In this document: piece by piece, positions 2,765 through 28,712 of the stretch
Layout: each line of letters opens with the position of its first letter
How positions within the stretch are numbered: position 1 is the first letter of the stretch
Assembly: GCA_950295325.1 (NCBI GenBank)
Contig: OX485808.1
Location: forward strand, 9,364,501 to 9,428,500
Direction: 5' to 3'
From: Polytrichum commune
Taxonomy: Eukaryota > Streptophyta > Polytrichopsida > Polytrichales > Polytrichaceae
Length of the DNA stretch: 64,000 nucleotides
Made by a program: the position numbers and the translations under genes
The notes under the pieces: generated by a model
Told to the model about the DNA's origin: nothing
The model's database searches: none
Seen by the model: only the letters and a program-made list of their open reading frames with translations

Positions 2765-4272
2765 GGACCCTCTCGGAACCGAGAGGGTCCCTACATAGTC
2801 CAACCCCTTAACTTGACAAATATCAACCCAACAAAAAAAGGTTTAGGGGGAAAGGCCGTTCAGAAGAGGTAAGATTCGGGATTCTCGGATCCAGGGAGCG
2901 GCCGAAACCTTTGAATTGCGGGAGAGGTCGTTGGCCTCTCTCTCTCGGATGTGCAGGGGAAAGGTGGCGAGAGACAGCAGGAGGAGAGCTGCTGAAACCA
3001 TGTGAGCTCACGGCCAGACATGCCTCTCAGGCGCTGGATAGAGGGCGAACTGAAATGGTTCTTGCCAGCAATGTGGGTGGTAAAGACAGACATCGGCCGC
3101 TAGGAGAATGAGTAATGCCGCAGCCAGGGAGCTGCCAAATTGAGGCCGAGGCCTAAAGGATTGAATTGGTGGTTATGTGAGGAGTCTGAGATTTCAGGTG
3201 CCAAAAACCAAAACCTAGCATTGGCTTGCCGAACCAGGAGGATTCGAGTGTGCTCAGACTCTGGCGAGGATACAGTAACAGGGCGACTTCACAAACTTCG
3301 AAGAGCGAGTTCCTGCATTTTTCACAAGTTGGCGAATGCGAGAGCCTAGTTGAACACTCATGAAAACATCCAGTAATAGCACTCATAGATGTGCGATTGG
3401 TAGAAGGCTAGCAAAGTTCTACGAGGGTTCTGGGTTTAAGGGCTGTGGTGAAAAATCACCATTCCAGCGTTGAGGCCGGAAAGGGGCACACTGGGAGGAG
3501 TCGAGTTTCGGGACCAGAGCTGGTCTGGGAGTTCACAGGGTAGTAGAAGCCAGGACCGAGGGGAGGCTTCTGGGCCCATGCACTGTGATTTTCGGCCGAG
3601 GGATGGACATGGGAAGTTAATCAGTGAAGGGATTAGATTAATTAGCTGCTAATCAGAAATTGCTAGGTAGGTTGGTGGGCCATAGCTGAGTAGTGAATTG
3701 GTTAAGGCACGGAGGAGATCAATTAGGAGAAGTAGAGTTGTTACCACTAGGTGAAGTGCTTAGGTAGGGTTATGAAGGCCAACAAGTGGCATTAGGAATT
3801 AGGCTAATGTTCAGTGTTTCTAAACACTTGGATTTGTGTTGTTTGGAATAAAAGCTAGTTGAATAATGTTGGAGCCATGGTGGTTTGAAGTCATTGACCC
3901 AAGAGTCAGTGTGAGCTCATGTTGGTCACAAGCTCCCATCCGGACTACGACGCATAAGGGTGGGTGTTTGTGGCTGACAACCCTCTCGGAACCGAGAGGG
4001 TCCCTACATAGTCCAACCCCTTAACTTGACAAATATGAACCCAACAAAAAAAGGTTCAACCCGTCAATCCCAACTTGTTTAGACACCCAAAAATGTGGTG
4101 CAAACCCCCAACCCCTGGACCCTCTCGGAACCGAGAGGGTCCCTACATTGCCCAACACCTTAACATGAGAAATATGAACCCAACCAAAAAAGATACAACC
4201 CCATCTACCCGAACCTATCTTAAATCTCGTTCTTGATTCCTACACTAAGACCCTCTCGGTTCCGAGAGGGTC
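2765..4272. repeat. four near-perfect CCCTCTCGG palindromes
   Basis: Strong inverted repeats lie at 2765-2790 (12-bp arms GGACCCTCTCGG and its complement around AA), 3980-4001 (10-bp arms), 4117-4142 (12-bp arms) and 4249-4272 (11-bp arms around TT). The first three are followed by a shared downstream block (TCCCTACATAGTCCAACCCC and onward, about 75 bp). Copies two and three form a 138-bp tandem pair, while copies one and two are separated by 1.2 kb of G-rich sequence that may be an insertion (about 2845-3979). The arm sequence resembles the CTCTCGGAAGTGAGAG core of the 80-bp array upstream. Confidence 0.85.
2845..3979. other. G-rich block between two palindrome repeats
   Basis: This stretch has higher GC than its surroundings and interrupts two copies of the palindrome repeat. 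Short frames on both strands have no recognisable domain. I see some inverted resemblance to the C-rich block at about 6200-7600 (for example the CACCCTTA..TGCGTCGTA..CC string), which suggests two old copies of one dispersed repeat. Confidence 0.4.
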
Positions 4273-5453: not shown

Positions 5454-5545
5454 TAAAGATCTAGAGGGAAGCTATCTTATGAGCGACGAGCAGTGAGCGG
5501 TGAGCGGTGAGCAGTAACACATGAGCAATGAGTAGTAACATATGA
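5454..5545 (+). repeat. left target-site repeat and terminal inverted repeat
   Basis: The target-site repeat occupies 5454-5463 and the terminal repeat starts at 5464. From about 5481 a cluster of GAGCAGTGAGC, GTGAGCGGTGAGC and GAGCAATGAG motifs follows. The same motifs occur in the opposite orientation at 21010-21062. Subterminal motif clusters of this kind often serve as transposase binding sites. Confidence 0.65.
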
Positions 5546-5679
5546 GCAATGAATCCAAATTTAGTAAAAACACACGGGTTTAGGGTACACAACCAAATTT
5601 TTGACAAATTAATTGCATATTTTCAATTGTAAATTGCCAATATTTTAAATGAAGCACAAGTCAAATGGCCCTATTTCCA

Positions 5680-5865
5680 TGGATCATTTAAAATACTTTC
5701 AATCTATTGCTGGTGTTTATTATAATAATCCAAACCAATACATGTCATTTATTGACATCCTTATACATGTAGTTACAACTAACACTTGCACAACTACTCA
5801 CATTTCACAACATCAGCAAGTTCAAGTAGGTGCATAACCTCATTATACGTATATGTAGGTGCCAT
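5680..5865 (-). pseudogene. partial second copy of the transposase 3' end
   Basis: This stretch is about 80% similar by eye to 7650-7845, the last codons and 3' flank of the SWIM transposase. On the minus strand it still reads YNEVMHLLELADVVKCE followed by a stop, against YNEVMRLLELAGIVECE in the main gene. It is cut off upstream of the SWIM motif. It is either a tandem partial duplication or the edge of a second, nested element of the same family. Confidence 0.7.
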
Positions 5866-5984
5866 AATTGTGAGCCACTCAAACCGCTCACGGGTTGAGT
5901 TAAGGCCCAGAATCTACAAAAGAAAGGAAATTAGATATTAGAAATAGTCAATATGTAGGTAACTACTAGGTTTTGAGACATCCG

Positions 5985-6165
5985 CCTGTGGATGCGAGTT
6001 GTGTAAGAGACTGGTATTAGGTCTGGATCAACCCGGGTTCGAATCCGGTTGGTTACATTGACTGGTGCTATCCCAAATTGAGCTAGTGATAAAGCAGGAA
6101 TAATCTATAGGCGGATACCAAGAAGACGTTACTACGCGGATGTGCGTAGAATCTTCTCAATTTTA
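5985..6165 (+). repeat. possible tRNA-derived SINE
   Basis: A perfect Pol III B-box-like string GGTTCGAATCC lies at 6036-6046, downstream of a G-rich, tRNA-like stretch, and the segment ends in an AT-rich tail (TTTTATTTTATTTTT). No convincing A box or full cloverleaf is visible, so it is not a functional tRNA gene. Confidence 0.35.
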
Positions 6166-6182
6166 TTTTATTTTTAGAAACT

Positions 6183-7600
6183 TGTTATTATTTATCCATG
6201 TGAATCAATCAAACCTGTGAGCTAGGATCACCCCCACCCTTAACTGCGTCGTAATCCAGGTGGGGGATCACCATTTCACAGTTTGGAACATGCCCACCTC
6301 CAATGGTGGTTCTTTCCACCTCTAGGTGACCCTTAATAATGAATAACCGTTTACTTTATTACTAATACTCATGCGTGTCATAACACGAACGTGAGAATCA
6401 ACACATTAAGTCACACATTAGCTTTTCACCTAAATTCCTAGCTTAACTATCACCCTTCACTACTTCACTAATATTACTACCTTAGCTTAAATCGGTTAAT
6501 CCAGTTTAGTTCTCAGTTGACCGTTGTCCTTTCATGCCCTTGGGCCTAATCACAACCAGCTCCTGGCCTCTTAGACCAACCCCGTTACCGGCCCTGTTAC
6601 CGGCCATGTTACCAGCCGTGGCTAGGCTGATCCCTTGCACCCTTCCTACCACACGTGGCTCTCGCCTATCTGGTCTAAGCACCCTTCCCATGCGTTCACA
6701 ACTGTTGAGACCCCAGCCACAGCTCTCGGCCATGCAGCCATCAATTCGCATTTGTTCACACTACGACCCCCTCGCATTTGTGCAACCTCCTCTCTGTGCT
6801 GATTCACCATTTAAATGAGGCTTGTGGCCTGGGCTCTTCCCCGCTCAATTTTGATCATTCTTCACATTAGTCATGTTGTAGTGCCCTCCGAACCACTTGT
6901 TTCGAACAATGTTGGTCGCAACCTGTGGAATTCACCTTCTCCTTTCCAGCTCGCCCATGCCTTGTGGCATTGTGCCAAGTTCTTTTTGGAAGGCCGAGGC
7001 CTCCAGGCATTCGAATTCAAACAATCCCTATCCCAGCTGCGCCCTCGGCAACCTCTATCATTTGCTCCAGCTTAGCCTCCAGCCTCCTTCCCCTCTTTGG
7101 CACAACACTTCCTCCTCATTCTCGGCGGCACCCACCTAGCTACCTACTAACTCCTCCAACATCCATCACCAGCCTCGCATTCGGCAGCGCCTTACTCCTC
7201 GGCGGTATCGTCCCCCTCCCCCTGCTAGCTTGCTTGTTCGAGAGAGAGCTGAGTTGTGAGAGCGGCGGCCTCAATCGCGCCCGTCTGAGTCCCTGGATCC
7301 GCACTTTACTAGGGTGCAGTGGCACCTGCCTAATTCGAACAGTTCCCAAGCCTTTTCAAGTCACATAAACCCCAGGCTTACAAGGCCTAAGGTCTAAGCC
7401 TAAGAACCACCTTAATCACCTCCTAGTCAATTCCCTTACACCTGCTCTCATTATTCAAGCACTAAGTACTAACCTCCTATCCCTAACCTTAATTCTAACA
7501 CAACTCCAATCCTCCACACTTTTTATGTTTTGATTAATTGATGAAAACTCCAAATCTAAGTTTTAATGTGTTTTTCAGGTTGAGAACACATGTGGCCACA
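6183..7600. other. C-rich block without a supported gene
   Basis: GC-rich, C-biased DNA with several overlapping open frames on both strands (the longest is 6925-7368 on the plus strand). The translations are Pro/Ser/Leu-rich with no domain. It lies between the partial and the main copy of the transposase 3' end, so it may be an insertion into the element. Confidence 0.4.
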
Positions 7601-7774
7601 GAGTTTGGGCTCACAAAACCGCTCACGTTTGGGTCGTAGTCTAAATAGAAATGAAGTTACTGAATCATTTGAAATACTTTCAATCCATTGCTAATTTTTA
7701 TTATAATAATCCAAACCAAAACATGTCATTTATTGACATTCAAATATATGTTGCTTAATACAACACTTGCAATA

Positions 7775-10700
7775 CTACTCACATTCTACAATACCAGCAA
7801 GTTCAAGTAGTCGCATGACCTCATTATAGGTATATGTAGGTGCATGAATGAACTTGTCACTCTCGTAATCCACCTTGCACAAAAATCTAAACACATAATA
7901 AAGATGTTTACAATACACCCATTTTCCTTTCTTTCCCAATGCATGAGAGGACATTTTCGTGAAGTCCGGGCATGTGCAATACGGGATGTCACCAATTGTG
8001 ACACGGTATGTAATATCCTCTTTGGAGACAATGTTGATTATCACTCCAAAACCTGGATATGGAATGGCAGTCACCCCAACTACAAAGTAACCATCCATGA
8101 GTCCGGCGCTCTCCCATTTGTTTTTGTGATCCGCTGTCGGTACGGTCAGATTGCGACGAACTGTCTTTCCGAACCTGAATGTAGGGTGGGCGTCTGGGTT
8201 GGATGGCATACGAAAATGCGAGCGAGGGATGGGAAGGGTTGCAATTGTAGAAAGCCTACGACGGGGGGATAATGCTTCCCTTTGCTGTAGTTGAAATCCA
8301 GCGTCCTCAAGCGCCAACACCTCCTCTCTTGATAGATTGGTGCCTATCTTCACCGGCCAAGTGTTAGGCACTATCGGCCAATCCAACACATATTTCTTCT
8401 TACTACCACTCACACAACGCTTGATGTCGTCAGGGCAGAACCAAAATTCATACTCCACATTGTTGGGAGAGCGAAATTCCTTCTTGAACCCTTTGTATGT
8501 TGGAGCAGGTGTGCCATGTTTTCCAGTACCGACTTTGGCATTGCACATCGTTCCTGTAATGGCCTGTAATGCCCAACATCATCTAGCTAAGTTGGGTGGC
8601 AATCTTGCAATGTGCCAATTAGAAGCAAGACAATCAATCTCTAACACGGATGTAGTATGAGTCACACCATGTTATGCAGAATTCAACGATTCCTCTATGC
8701 GTTGACGAGTTGCACGAGTGTTAGGGCGAGGAATTGAAAAATTCACTTTGTCAGGTCGATGAGAATCGCAATCAGCACCCGGGGGCATGTTGAGTTTTCG
8801 TTTGGTGGACCCAAATAGCTCGGACCCTTCCAATGCACAATCTCTAGTGTTGACGTCTTCTGCCCCCGGGAAAGACTTCATGGCATCAGCCAAAATTTTT
8901 GGATCTCCACACCTGGCAGCCGCCTTAAGTTTCAAGGACGCCGAATCAGGACCTTTACCATAAGACCCCCCTTTCAACCATGCACGGTAATTCGCGATTT
9001 GCATGAAGGCACGGATCATGTCATCAACAGTAGCTTCATACATGCAAGTCATCTTGTTGCCGGATTGTTGGAGCCATTTGTTATGAACAGTCTCGGCAAG
9101 GTTGCATGTTGGCATTTCTGCATGCTCATCTATTGTCATATCCTACGAACAACATACAAATATGGGGTTAAGAAAAAACAAGACACAAATTTATAAAAAT
9201 GGAAAAAATACGGGGAATGACATTGAATAATGCAATGTGGTATGCACTTACAAGTAGCATATGACCACCCCATTGTCTATAACGGAAGTGCCAAAATCCA
9301 AACCACTCCGAAAGGCCAAGGATGCCTTCTTCTGTGGCAGCTCCAGATGACAACCACCAAGAACGAATCACGTGATACTTAGTCTCGGCATCGTCCATTG
9401 TTACCGCGTCCTTGTAATCCTTGCATATTTGCTTGTGTTGAAACTCCAAGGATGGTTTGATATATTTTTGTGTCACCTTATCCAAGCTTGCAGACCAGTG
9501 GAAAAGGCATGTGCGTTCACGTGCGACCATGGGCATGCTTGGATCGCCGTCCCCATAAACCTTCCGCACCGCATTCCAATTGGCTTGAGCACTATCTGCC
9601 ATGAACCCTTTGAAGTTTGTTTTTGGAACACCATTCTCGGCCATAACAACATTCAGATTTTCCCAAAAGAGAGTTTGTGCTGCACCATCTTCAGATTGCA
9701 TGTCACAACACGCAATGGTCAACACCTTACAGTATCGACTGTCGTACACATGGCAAGCCATTGTCGTCCAATCCTTCAAACGTTTGACATGGTTAAACAT
9801 GATCCAAGAATTCTCCATATCTCCCCCGACTTGCATCCTCTTTACAAGCTCCACACCACTGCCCGGAAGGTCTACGGACATCTTGAAAACAAAAACCTTG
9901 TTTTTCGATTGCCCTGGGAACCGACTATCATGGACGAACTTGAAAGCAGAATGGTCTTTGAGTGCTATAATACTATCCATAGTTCCCATTCCACTACGCA
10001 CAAAACGTTTTGATCCAGATACAAAATTACGACAATTTGGGGAGGCTAGAGTGCTGAATTTGTCCATGACCACCTCTAAGGAAGAACCAACCAAGTGATG
10101 GCTTTCTCCAATTGTGGGAGATCTAAGAAGGTAATCGGCCAAGAATTGTTTGCTCGCGGCCATAACTATGGCGGAATTTGTGGCTGTGGGTGTTTTCAAC
10201 ACTTCATTGGCAACGCACTGGTATGCCATGTCCAATGATTCACGACATGTACCATTGGATACAGGGTGATCATGTACACCAAGATGAATGCAAGCTCTGG
10301 ACATCCCAGCAGAGGCGGAATGAATGTATATAATGCGAGCAGGGCACAAAGCAATGCACACAGGTGTTGAACGACATACCTTACACTGGATAGTAGATCT
10401 AGTAGGGGCAACATTACCCACAAAAAATGACAGAGGGGTTGAACCGGCCCATTCAGTGGTGTTGCGCAGACCCCCATTGCGATGCATGTAATCACAGTAG
10501 TCATTAGGACATTGGAGATGACCTGCACAAGTAGAACGCCGAAAGGATAATCCAAAATCATTTTGGATATTCGTGGTTTTGGTGGTGCACCAAGGGTGAC
10601 CGTCGCACATTTTATCCATACCATCCATGGAGTGGCCATACGTATTTGGAACTCCAAGTGCCACAGAGGGCAAAACAAATTAAACGTCGCCGTCAAAAGA

Positions 10701-11407
10701 AGATGGCAAGTATTTGACATCACGGACATCTATATTGTCAAAATCAATGAATGCAAGATCTGACTTTGACCTTTTCCTAGACTTTGTGAACTTCAAGGCA
10801 TCAACGATAGTCAAACCTGTAGATGATGGTGAAGGGTGCAATGGAGGGCGCTGAGAAGGTGTCATACGGTGAACCAATGTGTTGCACATAGGACTGAATG
10901 GGAATTTGGGAAGTTGTGAAGGAGTGAAGGAGTGGAGTTTTTACTTTCAAATGGAAATAACGATATGTCTGAAAGATCAACAGCAGCACAAATATCATCT
11001 TCTGAATCAGACAGCACCAATACACTATCATCATTGGGCTCCAACTTAACAGTTGCAACAGTGGGCATTTGAACTGTGGATGTACCGGATTCATTGGTCA
11101 ATAAGACAGTTGGAGCTTGCATCTGCGATTCAGAAAGACCTATGACCCTAAATGAACCAGGCCCTAAAATCCACACAAATCCATCTTCAGTTCTGGTCTT
11201 TTGAACCAAAATCGTTTCATACACCTCTCCATCCGCAGAGTACATCTCTTGTTCTAAATACATGCTTCTTAGTTGGAGATTGAATCTCAAACTAAGCAAA
11301 TCTTCCGAGACACACACAAAACCATCATCCTGAAGTGGTAGCAGGAAAGGAACAAAGGATCCGGGAGCTCTAATGGTAGCCATGGAGAAAGAAAGCAATA
11401 GATGCAC
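7775..11407 (-). pseudogene. MULE transposase with SWIM zinc finger, decayed
   Basis: MULE transposases cut and join the ends of Mutator-like elements. Reading leftward: an N-terminal region from about 11380 (acidic, LVLSDSEDDI), a Cys/His-rich region from about 10640, the catalytic core with GFMADSAQANW and RERTCLFHW, then, after an intron (9143-9251, GTAAGT...GTAG, phase 0), NLAETVHNKWL and finally the SWIM finger CTCPDF...VYCKHLYYVF, whose Cys-x-Cys...Cys-x-His pattern is typical of MULE proteins. The frame is broken by a shift near 10880-10950 and in-frame stops at 10680-10682, 8672-8674 and 8579-8581; elsewhere the frame stays open, so decay is recent. The stop at 7775 is shared with the partial copy at 5680. 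It faces away from the kinase gene. Confidence 0.8.
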
Positions 11408-12500
11408 GCCACAATAATATTGGATGGACGGAGATTATTATACTGAATGGTATGTACTAAAAAATGGGGTGTAGATCAAAACTTTGAATACTATAGCATC
11501 CAATCATACACAAGTAGACAACTCACACTGACAGTCAAAGAATAGATTAGGCCAAACATAGAACCCTAAATCAAACCCAATAAACTATCTCATTTGGAAA
11601 CAAAACCATAGCAAACCCCAATGCAGAAGTGAGATGTGGATCTTAAGTTCATTACACCATAAGTCATGTCCATTATAACATTGGGAAGAATATATGAAGA
11701 AGAGATTTAACTAATGTATATAACTTAATAAAAATATAAACTATTTAGAATATAGATCTATATATCTATGTCTATATGTCTATATCTATATATGTATATG
11801 TCTATATGTCTATATCTATATATCTATATGTCTATATGTCTATATATGTATATATGTCTATATATGTATATATGTATGAATTTCTAAATGAAAACGGAAG
11901 AAACACGGGCACGGACATCATTGAAAAACGTGTTATATAATGAACAAATACATATAAATCGAAACTAACAATTTGGCGAATAATTTCACTTTTTATATGA
12001 TGTTGGGGAAGTGAAGGATTTAAACCCTATAACCTTCTTAGAATGTTCCTCAATCATGTGCAAAAAAATGATTTCGGAAAATTTCCAAAATGTACCGTAT
12101 AGGAAGATTTCCCAAAAATCTACGATGTCATCAATTTCAGAGTTTTTAGAAATTCATAAGAATTTGAAATTTAATGAAAAAAATCTAATTTTTTGTATAT
12201 CACTACATATGATGGGTGTAACTATGAAGAAAAAATTTCAAGCTAATTAATTTTAATATGTAGGAGATATACCTATCTAAAGTTTTCTAAGATCTATGGG
12301 TTTTGTATATATATATTTTTTATATTTTTTATATTTTTTATTTTTTTTCAACCTTTCATTCCCCTCTGAACCTAAACCTAAACCTAAATCTAAACCCCTT
12401 CGCATTCACGGCCGCCATGGCCGAGGCGTATAAATAAGGATCAGAAGGTGTTTCTACAACAAACTTACATTAGCGACCTTCTGTTTAGCACTACGTATGA
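11408..12500. other. AT-rich spacer with TATATGTC microsatellite
   Basis: About 11755-11878 is a run of TATATCTATATGTC-type repeats. 12300-12350 is T-rich. This is the divergent promoter side of both the transposase and the kinase genes. No gene is supported; a 79-residue frame at 12011-12250 has no domain. Confidence 0.6.
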
Positions 12501-12538
12501 GAGCAAGTTTGTAGAGAAGTTGCTGGTTGGATCTGCTT

Positions 12539-13609
12539 GTGCGCTAGTGCACAAGCCTGCATTAGGACTACTTCTGTTCATTTTTCCTTTCAATGCTATC
12601 ACTTACATAAGATTTGTTTCGCCTTGCTGCTGAGAGTTGTTTGTGCGCTAGCGCACAAACATCCTAACATTCTTTGTGTTTACTTTGTTATTAAGATCTA
12701 TCATTTGCATACGATTTATTGCGCCCTTCTGCTGGAAGTTCTTTGTGCGCTGGCGCACAAACATCTTTTAGGACTCTTTTTGTTTACTTTGTTCTTCAGA
12801 TCTATCATTTGCATACAATTTGTTGCGCCCTTTTGCTGGAAATTCTTTGTGCGCTGGCGCACAAATATCCTTTAGGACTCTTTTTGTTTAGGGTGATCTT
12901 TAGATCTATCATTTGCATATAATTTGTTGCGCCTTTCTACAGAAAGTTCTTTGTGCGCTGGCGCACAAACATCCTTTAGGACTCTTTTTGTTTACTTTGT
13001 TCTTAAGATCTATCATTTGCATACGATTTATTGCGCCCTTCTGCTGGAAGTTCTTTGTGCGCTGGCGCACAAACATCTTTTAGGACTCTTTTTGTTTACT
13101 TTGTTCTTCAGATCTATCATTTGCATACAATTTGTTGCGCCCTTTTGCTGGAAATTCTTTGTGCGCTGGCGCACAAATATCCTTTAGGACTCTTTTTGTT
13201 TAGGGTGATCTTTAGATCTATCATTTGCGTACAATTTGTTGCGCCTTTCTACAGAAAGTTCTTTGTGCGCTGGCGCACAAACATCCTTTAGGACTCTTTT
13301 TGTTTACTTTGTTCTTTAGATCTATCATTTGCATACGATTTGTTGCGCCCCTCTGCTGGAAGTCCTTTGTGCGCTGGCGCACAATCCTTTCTTAGTACTT
13401 CTATTCACTTTTCTGTTTTAGTTCTTACATTTAGTTTAGGCTTCATTTTATTTTCTCTGGTTTGCACTTCATCTGCCTTGCTGTTGGATTCTGCTTGCGC
13501 GCTGGCGCACATTAATCATGTATTTTTCCATTGATTTTTTCTTTACTTCTATCAATGCTTTTAAGCTTGTTCTGCCCTGCTCCTGCTTTCTGGTTGTGCG
13601 CCAGCGCAC
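12539..13609. repeat. array of GTGCGCTGGCGCAC palindromes, mostly 104 bp apart
   Basis: Fourteen-base palindromic or near-palindromic sites begin at 12539, 12643, 12745, 12849, 12953, 13057, 13161, 13265, 13369, 13497 and 13596. Seven of the ten gaps are exactly 104 bp and two more are 102 and 99. The intervening DNA is also repeated (AGATCTATCATTTGCATACG, TTAGGACTCTTTTTGTTTA). Three consecutive units recur with the same variants, a 312-bp higher-order repeat (12745-12966 against 13057-13278). Outer sites vary (GTGCGCTAGTGCAC, GTGCGCCAGCGCAC) but mostly keep the dyad. The array lies upstream of the kinase gene. Confidence 0.9.
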
Positions 13610-13849
13610 AACCATCAATGATAACTAGTTCGATTTATATATTATGGTTCATCTACTAATATTTGTTTGAATCTTGTTCTTAATTTCTTTTAGAACATTT
13701 TACAACTTCTGTTTTGCTTTGTTATTTATAATTGGATTTTTTTTAATTGATGTTCTGAACTTCATGTGTAGCACTACACCTCCGATCTGGTTATGTGCCA
13801 AGTACAAAGGCATCAACTTTCATTCCAGGTATTTTTCCACTCCATTATG

Positions 13850-14160
13850 TTTTGTTTTGTTTTGATTTGTTTTGTTTTGCCTTGTTCTATTTTATTTTGT
13901 TTTGTTTTGTCTTGCTTTGTTTTTCTTCTAAATTCCGAATCATCTCAGCTGGCGTGGATGGATGTTTTATGCTTCCTCACGTCCTGGGTGTTAGGACGTG
14001 TAATTACATCATACTCATCATTTCCAGCTGGTATGGTCCACATGATTATAATTTTCATGTGCATATCATGGTTTTGATTTTTAACATTCAACTTCAAATG
14101 GCCCTAGTAGACGTGGATGGATGTTTCATGCATTCTCACGTCCTAGGTGTTCATATATGT
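13850..14160. repeat. TTTTG microsatellite and a short direct duplication
   Basis: 13850-13925 is a (TTTTG)n-like run. The string CGTGGATGGATGTTT...TCACGTCCTRGGTGT occurs twice, at about 13954 and 14111. The stretch lies in the kinase 5' region; a plausible splice acceptor (TTTATATGCAG) at about 14318 suggests an intron in the 5' UTR. Confidence 0.6.
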
Positions 14161-14379
14161 ATTTCTATAATATATTTTCTTTCTATCCGTGTACCAATCC
14201 ATTTTTTAACTGACTTTTAAGATGTGTATCTAAATCCTAAATTTCATTTTTTCAACGTTAAGTATACAACCCATACTGTATGGTAATTTCATGTGGTTTA
14301 TTGACTTTTATATGCAGGTTTTCATTGTTCGTTGATGCTATCTTCAACATACTATTCAAGATGATTATTGCTTACAACT

Positions 14380-15876
14380 ATGGAAGCTCTTCTCAATAAG
14401 CCTAATCAAATGGTTACTTTGAGTGTGCAAAGCTTCCTTGTAGAATGGTGGGGTGACATGTCTTGGGATTCAATCCATCAAAATTTTGTATCGATAGGTA
14501 TATCCGGCCCTATCCTTTTGCGTGAGCGTGTGAAGATCATGATTGATGATTGCATCTCGAGACGTTTTCCATCATGCAAAGAAATGTCCAATTATAATAC
14601 TTGGAAAGACAACGTCTCTTCTAATTTTGTTGGACAAATGCCCGATGTGGTTTCAAAGGTGCATCGGAAAGTCACGCATGGTTGGACATTGGACAAGTTA
14701 GAAGCGCAAAAATTTAATTCCGATCGGTGGCGAGTGGAGATTCCACAACTTTCAAGACGTAGAAAAACTCATGTCAAAAATTTGAACCGTGTTGATCGAC
14801 ACGTCATTCCTGGAGGTGATGCTTTTCTTTTTGCTTGGAGAGATGTTGTTATTGAGAAGCATGAACGACTAGGCCATGGTTCATATGGAGTGGTGTGGAA
14901 ATGTTTCATTAAGGACAATTCAGATACTGATCCATTCGTACCCTATGCCATTAAATTTTTCTTGGATCATAATGGAAATCCTCATCATGCAAGCATGAAG
15001 GAGTTCTATTCTGTGGCTTCCATAGATGATGGTGGTGTTATCAAACCGTTTGCTTTCCAAATGACACCCGCACCCGCCATTTTCTTGCCTTATTGGAATG
15101 GTGGGACATTAGGAGATATGTTCAAAAGTGTGAAAGACCATGGAACTAATGAGTATGATGTTTTTCAACGTCTTACAATACTCAAGAAAAATCATCCAGA
15201 ACAAATCTCTAAGATTCAAGAATTGGAACGGTTAAGGCTTTTTTTGTTAAACCGTTGTACCCTTGCGATTACCTTCATTCAAATCATGGCCGATGTACTC
15301 ACCATTCACAATGTATATCATTGTGATTTATCCTTTACAAACATCTTATTCCATTTTGGTGAGATGGATGACAAAGATGAAATTTACATAGGCATTGGTG
15401 ATTGGGGATCGGCAACAATATCGTCGGATAGACGACATTCAAATCATTTCTTGCAGTCGGAATCTTTTAGACGTTCTAGGCTCCAAGAACGTTGGTGGGT
15501 AGATCCTGAGTTGTTCTTCACCAAAGACCACAATGCTCGTCCGTGCCATACCGAAAAGACAGAGTCATATTCTGTATCAAAAATTGCAGAGGCTATTTGG
15601 GGTTTATATATTGATCCAATATATCTCAAAGTCATTCACTCCCGTTCTTATAATCTTTTGTTATATTGTATTCGTCGAATGTCATGCACTTCAACCACGG
15701 AGCTTCGCATGACCCCTACTGATGTCATGAATCGATTGTCTCGCGAACCAGATTTTCATACTTTTCCCTTCAACAAACACATCCGTAAACGTTATCTTAC
15801 TCTACCAGAACGGAATAGGGTTCATAGTCGTCAAATTGATTGTGATGATGAAATCCCTTTCAAACGTCAGAAATAG
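14380..15876 (+). CDS. atypical protein kinase within the element
   Basis: An uninterrupted frame of 498 residues starts at the first ATG after a likely 5' UTR splice acceptor. The first 160 residues match nothing I recognise and include a basic stretch (SRRRKTHVKNLNR). The kinase fold follows: glycine loop LGHGSYGVVWK (about residue 163), YAIKFF lysine, catalytic loop HCDLSFTNILF (about 313, Cys in place of the usual Arg of HRD but Asp and Asn kept) and GDWGSA in place of DFG. The metal-binding and catalytic residues are therefore present and activity is plausible. The C-terminus ends in a basic PFKRQK. Its neighbour on the same strand begins about 135 bp downstream. It does not look like the receptor-like or PNL kinases of the same window, and its substrate cannot be inferred. 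Confidence 0.85.
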   Translation: MEALLNKPNQMVTLSVQSFLVEWWGDMSWDSIHQNFVSIGISGPILLRERVKIMIDDCISRRFPSCKEMSNYNTWKDNVSSNFVGQMPDVVSKVHRKVTHGWTLDKLEAQKFNSDRWRVEIPQLSRRRKTHVKNLNRVDRHVIPGGDAFLFAWRDVVIEKHERLGHGSYGVVWKCFIKDNSDTDPFVPYAIKFFLDHNGNPHHASMKEFYSVASIDDGGVIKPFAFQMTPAPAIFLPYWNGGTLGDMFKSVKDHGTNEYDVFQRLTILKKNHPEQISKIQELERLRLFLLNRCTLAITFIQIMADVLTIHNVYHCDLSFTNILFHFGEMDDKDEIYIGIGDWGSATISSDRRHSNHFLQSESFRRSRLQERWWVDPELFFTKDHNARPCHTEKTESYSVSKIAEAIWGLYIDPIYLKVIHSRSYNLLLYCIRRMSCTSTTELRMTPTDVMNRLSREPDFHTFPFNKHIRKRYLTLPERNRVHSRQIDCDDEIPFKRQK

Positions 15877-15894
15877 ATTATACATTTTTATATT

Positions 15895-15900
15895 AATAAA
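15895..15900 (+). terminator. candidate poly(A) signal of the kinase gene
   Basis: AATAAA occurs 19 bases after the kinase stop, in a short AT-rich spacer. Plant signals are loose, so this is a candidate only. Confidence 0.4.
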
Positions 15901-16011
15901 GTATCGGATTTGTAAAATCCATTTTGTATTATTTTGAAGTATATATACGATGAAATTATTTCTATCATTTGTTGTTTGCATTTTCATTTATATTTTTTGT
16001 TTGCAGAAAAT

Positions 16012-19000
16012 ATGTTTCCTAAAGGAAAACAAAAAGACCCATCCTCCAATGCGTTACAACCTCTCTCACCAAGAATACAAACTATCCATCAACAAGGCGT
16101 TAAATCAACAACTAGGAAAAGAAGACAAGGTGAAAACTCCACCCCTACGCGAAGGTGTCATCGCAACAAGGGACTTCAACCTGATGTTGTTCTTGAAACA
16201 GTGGAAGAAGATTGTGCATCTTCCATGCATTCAAACGATCAACCACAAGTCCATTCTGAAGTAAATACAATGACATTGTCGCAAAGATTGGAGCCACTTT
16301 TGGGACAACATCAAAATATCACTGAAGATGTTGCAACAAAAATTGTGGATAATATTGTAGATTTAGTTGCAGAACAAGTTATTGAGGAATCCACTTTAGA
16401 GAAATCGCATGAAGAAAATCAAGACAATCTGCAATATGATGATACACAAGACTCTCAAGAGAATCAACACTTTCAAGTGACACAAACTTCTCCAGAGAAT
16501 CAACAATTTCAGGAGACACAAACTTCTCCAGGAAATCAACACTTTCAAGAGACACCAAATTCTCAACATACTGAACAATTCTAAGAACAACAACATTCTC
16601 TTGTGAATCAACGATCACAGCATAGAGAGCATTCTTTGACATTGTCTCAAGGGACAATATCTACATCTCAATTTACTGGTGGACCTTCTGAAGGTGTAAC
16701 TAATCGACGCAAAAAAGAGAAGGTACATTTTATTTTCATTTGTATTTAACGGTTTGAGTTTTTTAATTTATATATATATTCTATTATTATTAGGTTTATA
16801 ATTTCTTACATACATGAATATTGTGCAGAGTGGAAAAAATGATATTCATGAAGGATTATGGACACATCCGCCTACATTGGAGAACCCAGCTGAACATGAA
16901 GGAAAATCCATCAAGTACACGAGAATGAGACTCTTGGAGCGAAAACAAAAAATCAACTCGACATTGAATGATATATGTGTCATGAAATATCCTGTGCCTA
17001 TCCCTTTTTGTCGAATGATTGGCATGGAGGTGGTTAGGCCCGCATTGGACGATGATGTATCAATTTTGTCACGTTCGTTTCTCAATGGTTATATTCCTGG
17101 GTTTGCATCATTTTATGTCTCAGTAGAGCATGAAGAGGGATACACGATTGATGTCAATGATGATATTGTGAATGAATGGGATGAAATTTGGAAACAAAAA
17201 AATGAAGAATTTGAAGCGTATCTGACAGAGCATGGTTTGCATGCATTCAAAAATAAAATGTTTCACATTTGGGATGGAAATCATCGCTTTAAAGCGTGGT
17301 ACAATACCAAAGAGATGAAGTTGGGTGGTGTTGAATATCATATAAGCCCTACATCGATAATCCTTGATGGACGAAAAGAAAATCATTCTGTTATCACATG
17401 TCTCTGCGATGATATCAACATGTAAGTATTTTATTCATTTGTATTTTGATTATCTTATATTGTTAATTTTTTTTACATGTTTCATCTCTAAGTTTTTCAT
17501 ATTTTTATATTTATGTTTATATTTTGAAATGATTCAGATCAACAGAGAAAAATGTTGTCAAACCTCGATTCATTCACACACTCTTCAAAGTGACAAAATA
17601 TGGAAGTCAACCGCTGGAATGGTGGGAAGGAAGGATTAGTCCTGAGCAAATGGCTTTGTGCAAAAAGAGAAAATCAGTAAATTCCAAAAAGTGGTATAAT
17701 GTCACACAAGAGATCCTGGTCGAACATATTTACAAGGTAAATTTTGTATTTCCTTATTTCTTTAACTATGTCAATTTATATTTATGGATTTCTAGATTTT
17801 CTTTCTTTGTGCTCATCAATACTTTGTATTGTACAGAGTGAAATTGAGGACGAGGTTGCAAAAGCAACTGAAAACTATATCAACTTGGAGGTTGCAGATC
17901 ACATCGGATTGCAACAAATAATTGCAACAGCGTCACAATCCATCAAAACTAAAAAACGGTCAACACTGGTTAAAATTTTGGCCATCGCTGATCCCGAAAA
18001 TGGCACAGATTTTTTTGATGAAATCAAAAAACACTATGACAAAAATGGAGACAATGTGCAAATGACCCTTGATCGCCTCCATCGTCTTTGTCAATCTCAG
18101 GTTGACTCCAAAGAGAAAACGAATTGGCTAAAGCTCTGGAATGCTAATGATGACACAAAACATGCTGCATCGTTTCCTTTAGAAATTGGAGGAAATGATG
18201 CATTGGATCCATGGCTGACAAGAAGAACATTTTGGTGGCAGGTATTTATATATGAAGTTTACTATTTGATATGTAATATATTTATGTATCAGATATATAA
18301 TATATATGTATGTTTGATATATGTATGTTTGATATATGTATTATGATACATAACTATTTGTATATTGTATATTAATTATTTTTATGTATGTTATACAGCT
18401 CAAAGAGGAGGCATACAAAAAAAATTGACTACTATATCAATCATGATGATGCAACACAACGATTGGTGTTGGACAATATGACTTCGGATGTTCCGGATGT
18501 TGTCTCATATATTAGAACATGGGAGGAAAAAATTGGGAACATGGCCTTTTTAGTGGAAATACCCACTAAGGTGAATGCAAAGACTGTGTGGAGGAACAAT
18601 ATATGGAAAGATCAACCAGGTTCTGCTGCAATCATGTGTCGTATAATTTATCGATACATTAAATTCATTTTGATTGCAAATGGAAAACTTCGAGGTCGTC
18701 CATCATGGTGGTCTTCTTGGACACTTGCAGAAGGAATGCTTTGGAATATTGAACAAAGAAAATGGCCATCTGCACATCGCGAAGGGGGAGGTTGGTATTT
18801 GGACCTTCCCAACGGTTCTTTACCAGAAGAAGAAACACAATTGTTTCAAGATTGCAATGCAAGAGTTGAAGAACAAAGAAGTGTTGGTATTAATGTGGGT
18901 GAAATGCCAACATTTGAAACCGAACAACCATCGGAGTCCTCCAAACAACCATCGCAGTCTTCCAAACCACATATTCAATTGAGGAAAAAAAGAAAAATAA

Positions 19001-20399
19001 TCGATACAGAAAATGACGAACAAGATATTGTCCCAAATCCAAAGCCACCAAGTGGTCGAGTGTCATCAAGATCACAAATTGCAACTGTACCAAAACCGGG
19101 AAGAAATCTTGATTTTATTCCCAAGGTAGGCCTTGTTAAAGGTGATTGGTACGATTGTCATGTTTTTTATGAAAAACACAAAAAAACATCTCTTGATTTC
19201 AAAAAATTGATGTCATGGATGAAAGATGTTTCTTTGGGAAAAGTAAACAACGTGAATGGAATTGTTACCAAAGCATGTGTGGACCTAATTATCGTTGATA
19301 TTCCAGATGGGATGCCAATCCATGGTATTGACGAAGGGCGTACTATTCCTTCTTGGATGCAATTGAAGACAGATGAATGGTGGGAGACATTGTTTGATTT
19401 TTTGGAATCAATACTTTCAGACAATGGTTGCACGCTTATCATGTGCAATGCCAAGATGCCAAGACTGCAAGAAAAAATTGTGAGTTATGCACTAGGGACC
19501 AGAGATCGTCCAAAACATTTTTGTTTAAGGGAGCATGTCAAAACATTCACAATTGTGAACTGTTTACCACAAAATGCTCCTAACGGTATCCAAACTGCTC
19601 TTTCCAACATTCTTCTCTTGAAGAAACCATCTAGTTCATTTGCCCTCTCGGATGCTGCTAGCTACATAGATCCATTTGTGGACATCAAACAATTGGATGT
19701 TCTGTTCAATCAAATAACGAACACAAACATGTGTTTGAACCAATGTGGACAACCTTGGAGGGGCTAAAGAAAAAAGCCCTTTGGTTATGCAACAACTCAT
19801 TGAAGCATGTTCTCCATTACATGGTCGTATATTGGATTTGTCTGTGGGTACAGGTGCAAGTTTTCACGCTGCAAAAGAAAGTGAAAGACATATTTTTGGT
19901 TTTGAAGCAGACGAAGAAATACACATGGGGTTATTGGATGCTTTATTCCAGAGTTTGAATGTTGAAGCATCCAATGTATTTCAAACACCCTCAGAACCTT
20001 CCTCAAGTATTTGTCCAAATTTTGAGGATGTAGCTCCAAAGCAAGGGCGCAAATTTGTGGCCATCGATGTATCTGATTCTGAATAGTGAGTAAGTCTTCA
20101 AGCTAATTGCAAATTTCATACAATGAATTTGCATGTGTAAATTTATTTTTCAATATATTACTTAAACTCATATTAATATTGTTTTTTTTTGCATGATTAG
20201 CATTGGATTGAAAGATTGGTTTGCAAAAGTACCATCAACTCCAAATTTTGTACAAGACCTACCAATATATGCAAAGTCAATGGCACAACACATGGCACAA
20301 CAACAAGAAGTTTCACTAGAGTCATCAAGCCAATCAACGGATCTTCATCCTAGACGATTAGTAGAAATGTTCATGGACATAGAGGCCCATGAAAAATGA
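16012..20399 (+). pseudogene. ParB-like domain fused to beta-class DNA methyltransferase-like domain
   Basis: Six exons fit: 16012-16722, 16829-17421, 17538-17736, 17837-18241, 18399-20085 and 20201-20399, all with GT-AG ends; phases add up to about 1263 residues if three lesions are discounted. Exon 1 is basic then Gln/Glu-rich (repeats of QETQTSP). Exon 2 holds a ParB/Srx-like core ending WDGNHRFKAW. Exon 5 holds a methylase motif IV-like DLIIVDIPDGMP, then NGCTLIMC, and after it the SAM-binding motif I-like GRILDLSVGTGASFHAA with SPLVMQQLIEAC before it. The order IV then I is that of beta-class N6-adenine/N4-cytosine methylases. DIPD replaces the catalytic DPPY/SPPY, so activity is uncertain. 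Lesions: in-frame TAA at 16582, a one-base shift at an A8 run (18417-18424) and another near 19757. They may be decay or sequence error. Confidence 0.7.
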
Positions 20400-21009
20400 A
20401 ACTTTACATATATATTATGAAGATGTATGTTGAGAGTTCTCCAATGCCAAGTTTTCAATTGGGTTGTAATAATTAAAATCATTATATATCTAATGTTTTG
20501 ACTCTTCAATGTTTGTTGTTGTACATATAGTCTTCAATTTTCCACAAATATATATATATATATTCAATACCACGGTCATGAACATGCACCTGTAATTAGG
20601 TTTGGTTGTGATGAAATTCTTTGTGGTATATTGTACAAGTTGCATATTATGCATCCACTATATTTGAGTGCACACATGAATGCACCCAAATCCATGCACC
20701 CATGCACCAATTCATTGTTAAATTCATTGTTAATTATTTTGCTACAATTGATGATATTATTGAACCACAAAATAAAACATGTGGATGCAATAGTTTATCT
20801 ATAGTTGAAATAAAGATGTATTTATATATGATAAACGTATATATGCCCATAGTCATGTGGGATTTTTTTTTTCTCATTGCTCACTTCTTACAATGTTGCT
20901 TATCATCCCCACACCTCTCCCTATTAAACCCTAAAATCAAAAACTTTTATGCCAAAATTCCACGGTTATAGGATACTAGTGGCCCTATTACCAAATATTT
21001 CACCTTCCT
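20400..21009. other. 3' flank of the ParB-methylase gene
   Basis: AT-rich with a short TATATA run at about 20548-20562. It leads into the right terminal repeat. No gene is seen. Confidence 0.5.
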
Positions 21010-21086
21010 CACCGCTCACAAGTTACCACTCATTGCTCACCGCTCATTGTTCACCGCTCACAAGATAGCACTCCCCTAAAGATCCA
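21010..21086 (-). repeat. right terminal inverted repeat and target-site repeat
   Basis: CACCGCTCACAAG, GCTCACCGCTCATTG and TTCACCGCTCACAAGATAGC run inverted to the left-end motifs, ending in CACTCCCC at 21076. The target-site repeat TAAAGATCCA follows at 21077-21086. Confidence 0.65.
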
Positions 21087-22814: not shown

Positions 22815-23764
22815 ATGTCAAACCCCATAATCATTTTGGGAGCATCATCTAGGATTTGCATTTATAAAATGCAAATTCCTAGAACGCCTCGAGTGTGCAC
22901 ACTACAGATGATAATTCTTCCAGGGCCTCGCAATTCCACATCACGGGTTTCTTCAAACATGTCAACCCCCTACTCCTTCTCGGATCTTCTTCAATAATCT
23001 TTATCCACAAAAACTAAATTCCTCTAACTCCATGAGCGTGCACAATCCGGATGGAAATTCTTCCAAGGCCTCGCATTCCCACATGTACAGTTTCTTCAAA
23101 CATGCCAAACCCCCTAATCCTTCCGGGATCTTCTTCAATGATTTGCAACCATAGAAATATAATTCCTCCGATGCCACGAGCGTGCACACTCCCGATGGAA
23201 ATTCTTCCAAGGCCTCGCATTTCCACATCCCAAGTTTCTTCAAACATGTCAAACCCCATAATCCTTCCGGGACCTTCTTCAATGATTTGCAACCAAAGAA
23301 ATATAATTCCTCCAATGCCACGAGCGTGCACACTCCGGATGGAAATTCTTCCAAGGCCTCGCATTCCCACATGTCCAATTTTTTGAAACATGTCAAACCC
23401 CCTAGTCCTTCCGGGATCTTCTTCAATGATTTGCATCCACGAAAATTCAATTCCTCCAATGCCACGAGCGTGCGCACTCCAGATGGAAATTCCTCCAAGG
23501 CCTCGCATTCCCACATGTACAGTTCTTGCAAACATGTCAAACCCCCTAGTCCTTCCGGGATCTTCTTCAATGATTTGCATCCACGAAAATTCAATTCCTC
23601 CAATGCCACGAGCGTGCGCACTCCGGATGGAAATTCTTCCAAGGCCTCGCATTCCCACATGTCCAGTTCTTTCAAACATGTCAACCCCCTAGTCCTTCCG
23701 GGATCTTCTTCAATGATTTGCATCCACGAAAATTCAATTCCTCTAGTGCCATGAGCGTGCGCAC
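22815..23764 (-). pseudogene. decayed extension of the PNL leucine-rich repeats
   Basis: The 144-bp LRR units continue past the stop of the PNL gene at 23765. The stop is a GGA to TGA change in the repeated Pro-Ser-Gly codons. A one-base deletion follows near 23683 (CATGTCAACCCCC where other units have CATGTCAAACCCCC), which moves the repeats to another frame that runs to 23001. The last units, to about 22815, are heavily diverged. The units nearest the stop are hardly changed, so truncation of the gene is recent. Confidence 0.8.
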
Positions 23765-25320
23765 TCAGGATGGAAATTCTTCCAAGGCCTCGCATCCCCA
23801 CATCCCAAGTTTCTTCAAACATGTCAAACCCCCTAATCCTTCCGGGACCTTCTTCAATGATTTGCAACCAAAGAAATATAATTCCTCCAATGCCACGAGC
23901 GTGCACACTCCGGATGGAAATTCTTCCAAGGCCTCGCATTCCCACATGTACAGTTTTTTCAAACATGTCAAACCCCCTAGTCCTTCCGGGATCTTCTTCA
24001 ATGATTTGCATCCACGAAAATTCAATTCCTCCAATGCCACGAGCGTGCGCACTCCGGATGGAAATTCTTCCAAGGCCTCGCATTCCGATATCAAAAGTTT
24101 CTTCAAACATGTCAAACCCCCTAGTCCTTCCGGGATCTTCTTCAATGATTTGGATCCACGAAAATTCAAATCCTCCAACGCCACGAGCGTGCACACTCTT
24201 GATGGAAATTCTTCCAAGGCCTCGCATTCCCACATCCAAAGTTTCTTCAAACATGTCAAACCCCCTAGTCCTTCCGGGACCTTCTTCAATGATTTGCAAC
24301 CAGAGAAATATAATTCCTCCAATGCCACGAGTGTGCGCACTCCGGATGGAAATTCTTCCAAGGCCTCGCATTCCCACATCCCAAGTTTCTTCAAACATGT
24401 CAAACCCCCTAATCCTTCCGGGATCTTCTTCAATGATTTGCATCCACGAAAATTCAATTCCTCCAATGCCACGAGCGTGCGCACTCCGGATGGAAATTCT
24501 TCCAAGGCCTCGCATTCCCACATGTACAGTTTTTTCAAACATGTCAAACCCCCTAGTCCTTCCGGGATCTTCTTCAATGATTTGCATCCATTAAATGCCA
24601 ATTCCTCCAATGCCACGAGCGTGCGCACTCCGGATGGAAATTCTTCCAAGGCCTCGCATTCCCACATGTAGAGTTGTTTCAAACATGCCAAACCCCCTAG
24701 TCCTTCCGGGATCTTCTTCAATGATTTGCATCCATTAAATGCCAATTCCTCCAATGCCACAAGCGTGCGCACTCCGGATGGAAATTCTTCCAAGGCCTCG
24801 CATTCCCACATCCCAAGTTTCTTCAAACATGTCAAACCCCCTAGTCCTTCCGGGATCTTCTTCAATGATTTGCATCCATTAAATGCCAATTCCTCCAATG
24901 CCACAAGCGTGCGCACTCCGGATGGAAATTCTTCCAAGGCCTCGCATTCCTCCATCCCAAGTTTCTTCAAACATGTCAAACCCCCTAGTCCTTCCGGGAT
25001 CTTCTTCAATGATTTGCAACCATAGAAATATAATTCCTCCAATGCCACGAGCGTGCGCACTCCGGATGGAAATTCTTCCAAGGCCTCGCATTCCCACATG
25101 TAGAGTTGTTTCAAACATGCCAAACCCCCTAGTCCTTCCGGGATCTTCTTCAATGATTTGCATCCATTAAATGCCAATTCCTCCAATGCCACAAGCGTGC
25201 GCACTCCGGATGGAAATTCTTCCAAGGCCTCGCATTCCTCCATCCCAAGTGTCTTCAAACATGTCAAACCCCCTAGTCCTTCCGGGATCTTCTTCAACGA
25301 TTTGCATTGTAAAATGTTTA
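22815..25320 (-). repeat. 144-bp tandem DNA array encoding LRRs
   Basis: About 17 units of 144 bp, each encoding two LRRs, differ mainly in a few variable codons (for example NFRG, YFYG, AFNG, YFFG). Identity between units is very high, so the antisense strand also stays open over long stretches (several plus-strand frames up to 317 codons), which are shadows. Confidence 0.9.
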
Positions 25321-28300: not shown

Positions 28301-28712
28301 TGCACGTTGGAAAAAATGTCGTAGAACTTTCAATCCTCAAGATTTCAGGTTCTCGACTTTGAAAAAAATGACAAAATATGTTGCACATTGTGTGGAAGGA
28401 ACACTCAAAGTCCTTGAGAAGTTCTCTGAAGGTCTCTTTGTTATTCATTTGTTTCACGACAACTCGACACCAATCATCATTGCAACATTCTTCTATCACA
28501 CCCCTTGCCTTCTTCACAACGAGGAGCATGTCTTCCTCCACTTGACGAAAGACATCCCCATGTGAACCCTCAACAATTGTTTCAATTGCTTGCACACCCT
28601 TGCGGAAGTTGTCCAACAAATTTTCACATTGTCGTCTATTCAAAACTTCTTCTGGCAATGGCAGATTCGGAAAATTTGCAATCTCCATTGGTACCCGTAG
28701 AAAACTTGTCAT
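23765..28712 (-). CDS. protein kinase-NB-ARC-LRR (PNL) immune receptor
   Basis: Three exons (28712-27105, 26941-25874, 25735-23765; GT-AG introns of 163 and 138 bp, both phase 0) give 1548 residues. The first ATG is at 28712. Residues 1-200 are helical and Cys-rich. The kinase follows with LGGGASGSVYS (about 209), HRDLKPDNV (about 340), VDFGISK (about 367) and a GTPGYTAPE activation segment. A local duplication (HPNIIKLFGCG...HPNIKLLCCG) lies in the kinase N-lobe. NB-ARC has P-loop GMGGIGKST, kinase-2 KILIVVDNV, GSKFIATSR, GLPLSLEVMGSSL and LDMHDQLRDMG (MHD). The LRR has about eleven 48-residue double units such as LKKLGMWECEALEEFPSGV. NB-ARC-LRR proteins sense pathogen effectors; a kinase N-terminal domain is the class described in mosses. 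The stop is a nonsense change within the LRR array, so the ancestral protein was longer. Confidence 0.92.

Follow-up and report, generated by a model that had tools for sequence, protein, structure and literature searches.

The locus considered here raises the question of whether a transposase, a protein kinase and a predicted ParB-like protein with a methylase-like domain form one mobile unit and, if so, what the additional genes do for it. The stretch of 64,000 nucleotides in which it lies (hereafter the window) is C6:9364501-9428500 of the genome that was searched in this analysis (407.8 Mb, 64 contigs). In the reading favoured here, the 15.6 kb at positions 5464-21076 are a degraded copy of a DNA transposon of the Mutator type from a plant genome, probably that of a moss. 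Its ParB-like protein would bind palindromes private to the element and mark the element as its own, likely allowing it to escape silencing. Taken jointly, these parts are given a probability of roughly 0.55 on the basis of sequence comparison.

Element boundaries and related copies

An earlier note on this DNA had proposed a Mutator-like element with inverted ends and a 10-bp flanking direct repeat agreeing at 9 of 10 positions, and both the ends and the repeat were confirmed. The element is delimited by the following features:

5464-21076: whole element, defined by its ends and the 10-bp repeats
5454..5463 (no strand): left target-site duplication, TAAAGATCTA, matching the right repeat at 9/10 positions
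21077..21086 (no strand): right target-site duplication, sequence TAAAGATCCA
5464..5552, plus strand: left terminal inverted repeat with subterminal TGAGCRR repeats
21008..21076, minus strand: right terminal inverted repeat

The terminal arms measure 71 nt with 75% complementarity, and 47 of 65 bases pair, against a maximum of 35 among 200,000 random pairs from the window. The 9/10 agreement of the flanking 10-mers was equalled by 13 of 200,000 random pairs. Mutator-like elements produce target duplications of 8-11 bp. Perfect 10-bp duplications were found around the relatives C7a, C4a, C6a and C1a (GTGGGGGAGG, CATTGGCGAC, GCTTTGGAAG and TCCGCACGGA) and around C4b and C7b; in C1b, 8/9 bases agree (9 bp with one mismatch).

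A genome search with a 147-base query of the left end gave 581 candidates, 40 of which were scored. At all 39 scored places other than the window the match starts at query base 3-11 (exactly at base 11, the first base of the element, in 29 of them, and at base 3-10 in 10), and at none does it include the whole flanking repeat. The uniform start of these matches, mostly at the first element base, indicates that the left boundary is real.

The earlier note had suggested looking for further copies with the same ends, and in the 20-kb stretches fetched from 10 of the 39 places full-length relatives were found. C7a, C4a, C6a and C1a are full elements of approximately 14.9-15.4 kb, with main blocks 89-98% identical to the window, and carry the transposase, kinase, ParB exon and methylase exon inside the same ends. 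The identical gene set is thus present in five full-length copies (the window and 4/10 fetched). C5a has 1.76 kb of the left end followed by foreign DNA, and is probably an interrupted copy because a kinase and palindromes lie 28.6 kb farther along the same strand. Sister elements with the same ends were complete in three cases (C4b, 13.65 kb; C7b, 8.7 kb; C1b, 6.0 kb), none of which gave a kinase match by tblastn at 1e-5; C2a and C3a are sister copies whose right end was not found within 20 kb. The sisters keep diverged pieces of the second cargo gene: a ParB exon of 34-37% identity in C4b, C1b and C3a, and a methylase piece of 39% in C7b. The ParB exon within the C2a stretch belongs to a fourth element of opposite orientation.

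The claim that the kinase and the ParB-methylase are standing cargo consequently holds for the window-type subfamily, and fails for some sister elements, in which no kinase was found. Ends without these genes, which the earlier note had named as evidence against a unit, were encountered in part: 3/10 fetched elements are complete without a kinase having been found, yet they contain ParB-like or methylase-like pieces, as does the partial copy C3a. The presence of such diverged pieces in kinase-less sisters suggests that the ParB-methylase belongs to a wider family and the kinase to one subfamily.

At approximately 10.9-18.2 kb of the joined C3a stretch (L027/L028) there is a Ty3/gypsy-like retroelement with frames that resemble, by eye, a C5 cytosine DNA methyltransferase and a PHD finger. 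No further pieces of the element were found elsewhere in the 64-kb window (blastn, 1e-3). One gene region of the window (23001-28763, minus strand) combines a kinase domain with NB-ARC and a long array of leucine-rich repeats, a PK-NBS-LRR arrangement that occurs in mosses. The window also contains a Tc1-like transposase fragment (HTH_Tnp_Tc3_2; 47041-47742, plus strand). Together with the seven large contigs of the genome, these two features point to a moss as the probable host. In the GC-rich 52-64 kb part of the window there are four occurrences of GGGCGCTGTCCCGGGACAGCGCCC (52421, 58537, 59775 and 63800).

Coding capacity of the element

The transposase lies on the minus strand and the kinase and ParB-like/methylase-like gene on the plus strand, in the orientation described previously. 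The transposase features are:

9168..11383, minus strand: first exon (catalytic part), extending slightly beyond the splice site
7778..9142, minus strand: second exon with a weak SWIM motif; two in-frame stops in the window copy
5680..5862, minus strand: second, partial copy of the transposase 3' end, 85% alike to 7661-7843

The first exon of the window copy is interrupted by a frame change and an in-frame stop, one of each, and has Asn in place of an almost invariant Asp. The structural model of the transposase is closest to the ISCth4 fold, which points to an RNase H-like DDE transposase of the Mutator/IS256 type. Pfam Transposase_mut was detected in 2/17 transposase relatives (best E 0.034), with no MULE profile among the hits. 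The Mutator-like assignment is backed by the further copies, their 10-bp duplications and the ISCth4-like model. Of the proposed SWIM transposase, the gene itself was upheld, and the SWIM motif is sub-threshold in Pfam (PF04434, 15.8 bits against a cut-off of 19.6). C-to-T decay was considered as the cause of all stops and ruled out, as one stop faces Leu in relative P0004. The two transposase 3' ends (5680-5862 and 7661-7843) flank about 1.8 kb of foreign DNA. The 3'-end duplicate is common to the fetched relatives, indicating that it is older than the window insertion.

The first gene on the opposite strand encodes the kinase:

14380..15876, plus strand: protein kinase of 498 aa in one open exon

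Its relative P0001 (94% identical) reaches 35.3 bits with Pfam Pkinase against a cut-off of 31.7, and the window copy, with 29.3 bits, falls below it. The intactness of the window kinase is not significant, since by a rough estimate from the other two genes only about 1.4 lesions would be expected. The kinase has 87 matches in the genome, including 12 loci of at least 82% identity (the window among them) and 6 loci of 40-65%. The other 11 close loci are mostly interrupted. At 8/12 close loci, one of the 40 scored left ends lies on the same strand (the five full copies including the window, C5a, C1:9648778 and C7:13717168). No host parent gene of the kinase was identified among the 87 matches, the surroundings of the 40-65% identical ones being left out. 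A second, distant kinase family (23-25% identical) makes up 55/87 matches in dozens of places, many with uninterrupted frames near 708 aa; for one example, L030:4245-6368, the single 10-kb stretch viewed contains no relative of the element's transposase. An AlphaFold2 model of the kinase built from two sequences had a pLDDT of only 34.

The second gene was modelled as six exons:

16012..16722, plus strand: exon 1 (hand model), in-frame stop near 16583
16829..17421, plus strand: exon 2, ParB-like domain with the motif WDGNHR
17538..17736, plus strand: exon 3 (hand model)
17837..18241, plus strand: exon 4 (hand model)
18399..20085, plus strand: exon 5 with the N4/N6 methylase-like domain; in the window copy, two frame changes
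20201..20399, plus strand: exon 6 (hand model)

The gene reported as a ParB-methylase is thus present; its ParB designation is a call by motif, as exon 2 has no ParB profile match in Pfam, PDB, PHROGs, PADLOC or NCBIfam. Because the profile match fails and the motif (D/E)GNHR is kept in the three aligned lineages, the protein is referred to as ParB-like. For the second domain, relative P0002 (97% identical) scores 29.5 bits with PF01555 against a cut-off of 26.7, and the window piece lies below it at 25.8. The catalytic motif IV of N4/N6 DNA methylases is (D/N/S)PP(Y/F/W), for example DPPY. The window lineage has DIPD at this point and C4b has QFPD; neither fits this definition, making catalysis doubtful and methylase-like the more suitable name. 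The window lineage retains DLSVGTG, the SAM-binding motif. No relatives of the kinase, methylase, ParB exon or transposase were found in viral collections; a comparison of the methylase with phages returned 16 records, and among the 15 matches listed all had E values of 1 or worse. Both compact genes of the earlier description are present, and in the window copy the transposase and the ParB-methylase gene are broken.

Palindrome arrays

An array that the earlier note did not mention lies in the non-coding DNA from which the transposase and kinase genes diverge:

12538..13610 (no strand): 11 palindromes, TGTGCGCNNGCGCACA (9 perfect and 2 with a single mismatch), most of them 104 bp apart

The 64-kb window has zero such palindromes outside the array at up to 3 mismatches. 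Across all 11 units the arm columns are 0.97 identical, compared with 0.61 for the flanks, and in units 1, 10 and 11 the values are 0.90 and 0.42. The two central bases are less conserved (0.69 in all 11 units; 0.33 in units 1, 10 and 11). Conserved arms, drifted surroundings and variable central bases are the mark of a dyad-binding site, and the palindromes are accordingly candidates for such sites. There is no gathering-level Rfam match in the window.

The four other full copies have 3-4 perfect palindromes each. Genome-wide, TTGTGCGCNNGCGCACAA occurs at 37 sites, against 0 for the reversed control, and these sites fall in 11 places (1-9 each), all adjoining a kinase copy. A palindrome lies beside 11/12 kinase loci of at least 82% identity; the remaining locus, C7:38395041, matches in part and contains four stops. 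No exact palindrome was found beside the six kinase loci of 40-65% identity.

The commonest spacings, 102-104, 64 and 104-106 bp, are near whole helical turns, and spacings of 128, 206 and 227-232 bp also occur. Palindrome clusters were also observed outside these elements, in the C7a flank and at 2765-4272 of the window. The latter cluster consists of four perfect palindromes that share the core CCTCTCGGNNCCGAGAGG and are almost the same as that of the fourth element, and it is perhaps a remnant of an array of that type.

Co-variation of palindromes and ParB-like proteins

Related elements were found to carry different palindromes. Window-type copies have TTTGTGCGCTNGCGCACAAA, whereas C4b, C7b and C3a have AAACCCTGTGCGTTAACGCACAGGGTTT with a period of 64 bp (C2a has a shorter form) and C1b has GGTGGCCGTTAACGGCCACC with a period of 105 bp. 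The sister palindromes lie between the transposase and the ParB or methylase genes. The ParB exons of the three lineages are mutually 33-40% identical, compared with 94-98% within the window lineage (window versus C4a, C7a, C6a and C1a) and 79% and 91% for two pieces of C4b versus C3a. The transposase behaves differently: most sister pieces are 69-95% identical to that of the window (56 and 67% in two short C1b pieces that overlap). The ParB exon, by comparison, stands at 34-37%, and the palindrome has been replaced. The array would therefore track the ParB-like protein more than the transposase. In two fetched stretches, C7b (where a methylase piece is kept) and C2a, an array is present without a ParB exon of its own.

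An array was predicted to the right of the fourth ParB lineage (C2) before this stretch was fetched. In this element the transposase is 37% identical and runs in the opposite direction, and the ParB exon is 32% identical. The gap between the ParB-like and transposase genes contains tandem repeats in which 6 imperfect sites resemble CCTCTCGGNNCCGAGAGG with no more than 3 mismatches (mean after shuffling, 0.01). An automatic scan of the gap (arms of at least 7, spacer of at most 2) gave no array, because the dyad spacer there is 4 bases, and the sites were seen on a looser reading. Beyond the gap, on its ParB side, there are 3 more such sites. Given the failed scan and the sites outside the gap, the fourth element is regarded as partial support.

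The co-variation bears directly on a rather unlikely alternative, in which the palindromes are bound by, for example, the transposase or a host transcription factor and would drive the transposase and kinase genes in both directions as a promoter or enhancer, the ParB-like protein having an unrelated job. The array does occupy the divergent gap upstream of both genes, where a promoter is expected, and Mutator transposases are DNA-binding proteins. However, the sister transposases are mostly 69-95% identical although their palindrome has been replaced, and it is the ParB exon that has diverged to 34-37%.

A possible self-marking function

In the favoured reading, the element brings together a kinase gene, private palindromes and a protein that is predicted to be ParB-like and has a methylase-like domain. 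The ParB-like protein would bind the palindromes of its own element, as suggested by their joint change between lineages, the non-coding position of the array and the conservation of the arms. Once bound, it may mark the element as its own, likely relieving or escaping host silencing. With less confidence, it is proposed that the bound protein, through its SAM-binding methylase-like domain, could alter the chromatin or base modification of its own element in a VANC-like manner, and the kinase might tune this marking step or the transposase. Counting against this explanation are the lack of a ParB profile match in exon 2, the degenerate motif IV, the arrays without a ParB exon in C7b and C2a, the palindrome clusters outside the elements, the six kinase loci of 40-65% identity that have no exact palindrome, the imperfect sites of the fourth element, the mostly interrupted state of the close kinase loci and the limits of the dN/dS comparison given below.

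A more general version can be put forward tentatively. Each lineage may own a matched pair of ParB-like protein and private long-palindrome array, constituting a self-address system by which a transposon would find its own copies and place epigenetic marks on these only. Such a pair would be to eukaryotes what ParB-parS is to bacteria, with a methylase-like domain attached, and in one lineage the kinase would have been added as a control switch.

It is improbable, on the other hand, that the protein acts as a ParB-parS-like device, loading on the array and spreading or bridging to hold ends or copies together for transposition or partition, with a dead methylase-like domain of structural use. 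In its favour, bacterial ParB typically binds arrays of palindromes, the most frequent spacings here fall close to whole turns of the helix, and the degenerate motif IV would suit a dead domain. Evidence for CTP binding or a ParB profile is absent, however, and the DLSVGTG motif has been kept in the window lineage.

Apparent selection on the cargo

Among the five copies (10 pairs for each region) mean dN/dS was 0.29 for the kinase, 0.29 for the ParB exon, 0.50 for the methylase exon, and 0.67 and 0.65 for the transposase exons. The pairs are not independent, broken codons were taken out beforehand, no significance test was applied, and the values of single pairs range from 0.12 to 2.56. On these means, constraint on the cargo genes seems no weaker than on the transposase. 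Mean dS is higher for the kinase (0.10) than for the first transposase exon (0.035), so parts may have been exchanged between elements.

Gene capture is described as a known habit of MULEs (PMC6431247), and the window copy is decayed, as would be expected if kinase and methylase fragments had been taken up by chance in the manner of Pack-MULEs and were drifting. Such passive capture of host gene fragments is very improbable here in view of the dN/dS of 0.29 for the kinase and ParB exon, the same cargo in 5 copies and the diverged ParB-like genes held by sister elements. That the inverted ends merely surround nested, unrelated insertions, a notion to which the partial repeat of the transposase 3' end and the foreign stretch at 5863-7660 might lend itself, is refuted by the identical gene order inside the same ends at four other loci, each with its own 10-bp duplication.

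Comparison with known systems

Bacterial ParB-parS systems combine a DGNHR-type motif with a palindrome cluster beside the gene. The element resembles them in both respects, and differs in the failed profile match, its setting in a eukaryotic transposon and the fusion to a methylase-like domain. The bacterial MADS defence, in which the MAD6 kinase occurs with MAD2, likewise pairs a kinase with a methylase, and weak PADLOC profile hits were obtained (mad6, 1.7e-9; mad2, 0.0025). This link was rejected as generic kinase similarity: the mad6 score of 35.1 bits is no better than the generic kinase score of 35.3, and NCBIfam MAD6 gave 21.5 against a cut-off of 460. Pack-MULEs share the Mutator-type ends enclosing extra coding sequence, whereas the cargo described here looks selected, is common to the copies and is accompanied by a transposase gene.

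Among eukaryotic transposons, the TET/JBP-bearing IS3EU elements also place an epigenetic enzyme and a kinase beside the transposase; these are described as a dioxygenase and an alpha-kinase, in another superfamily and in fungi (PMC12730594). Closer in content is Sola1-1_Ec32, a 21.5-kb Sola1 element of Ectocarpus in which a large protein with ParB-like and N4C/N6A methylase parts is encoded opposite the transposase, and the authors point to further cases in green and red algae. The same paper describes nested insertions and transposases in decay for its giant families as well (PMC12477816). The differences are that a Sola1 element of an alga is compared with a Mutator-type element of a land plant, that the likeness is drawn from the description of the protein, and that section 5 of that paper mentions neither a kinase nor a palindrome array. 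The earlier note knew of no precedent for transposase, atypical kinase and ParB-methylase as standing cargo. The combination with a kinase is unreported in the matches listed, but ParB and methylase opposite a transposase had already been published (PMC12477816). This was the only paper on a ParB-methylase transposon among the open-access matches listed, none of which treats palindrome arrays with ParB-methylase proteins or a MULE with kinase and ParB-methylase; the excerpts of PMC12839542 and PMC4469406 contain nothing on transposon ParB proteins. The Ectocarpus authors proposed that ParB-methylase proteins may attach to the transposon that encodes them and modify it, the target DNA being unnamed in section 5 (PMC12477816). 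The palindrome arrays supply concrete candidate targets that differ between lineages, which makes this proposal directly testable.

The closest functional parallel is VANC of the Arabidopsis VANDAL MULEs; it binds tandem motifs that vary from one related element to the next and demethylates them (PMC5735166). In both cases an accessory protein of a plant Mutator-type element and private non-coding tandem motifs diverge together, the exceptions here being C7b and C2a, with arrays for which no ParB exon was found. Binding and demethylation by VANC are experimental, whereas those of the ParB-like protein are inferred; the VANC21 motif has 9 bases and is non-palindromic (PMC5735166), and the likeness is drawn by function. 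If the favoured reading is true, a bacterial-looking DNA-tagging module operates inside plant chromatin, and sequence-specific self-recognition evolved at least twice in Mutator-type elements, once with VANC and once with a ParB-like protein.
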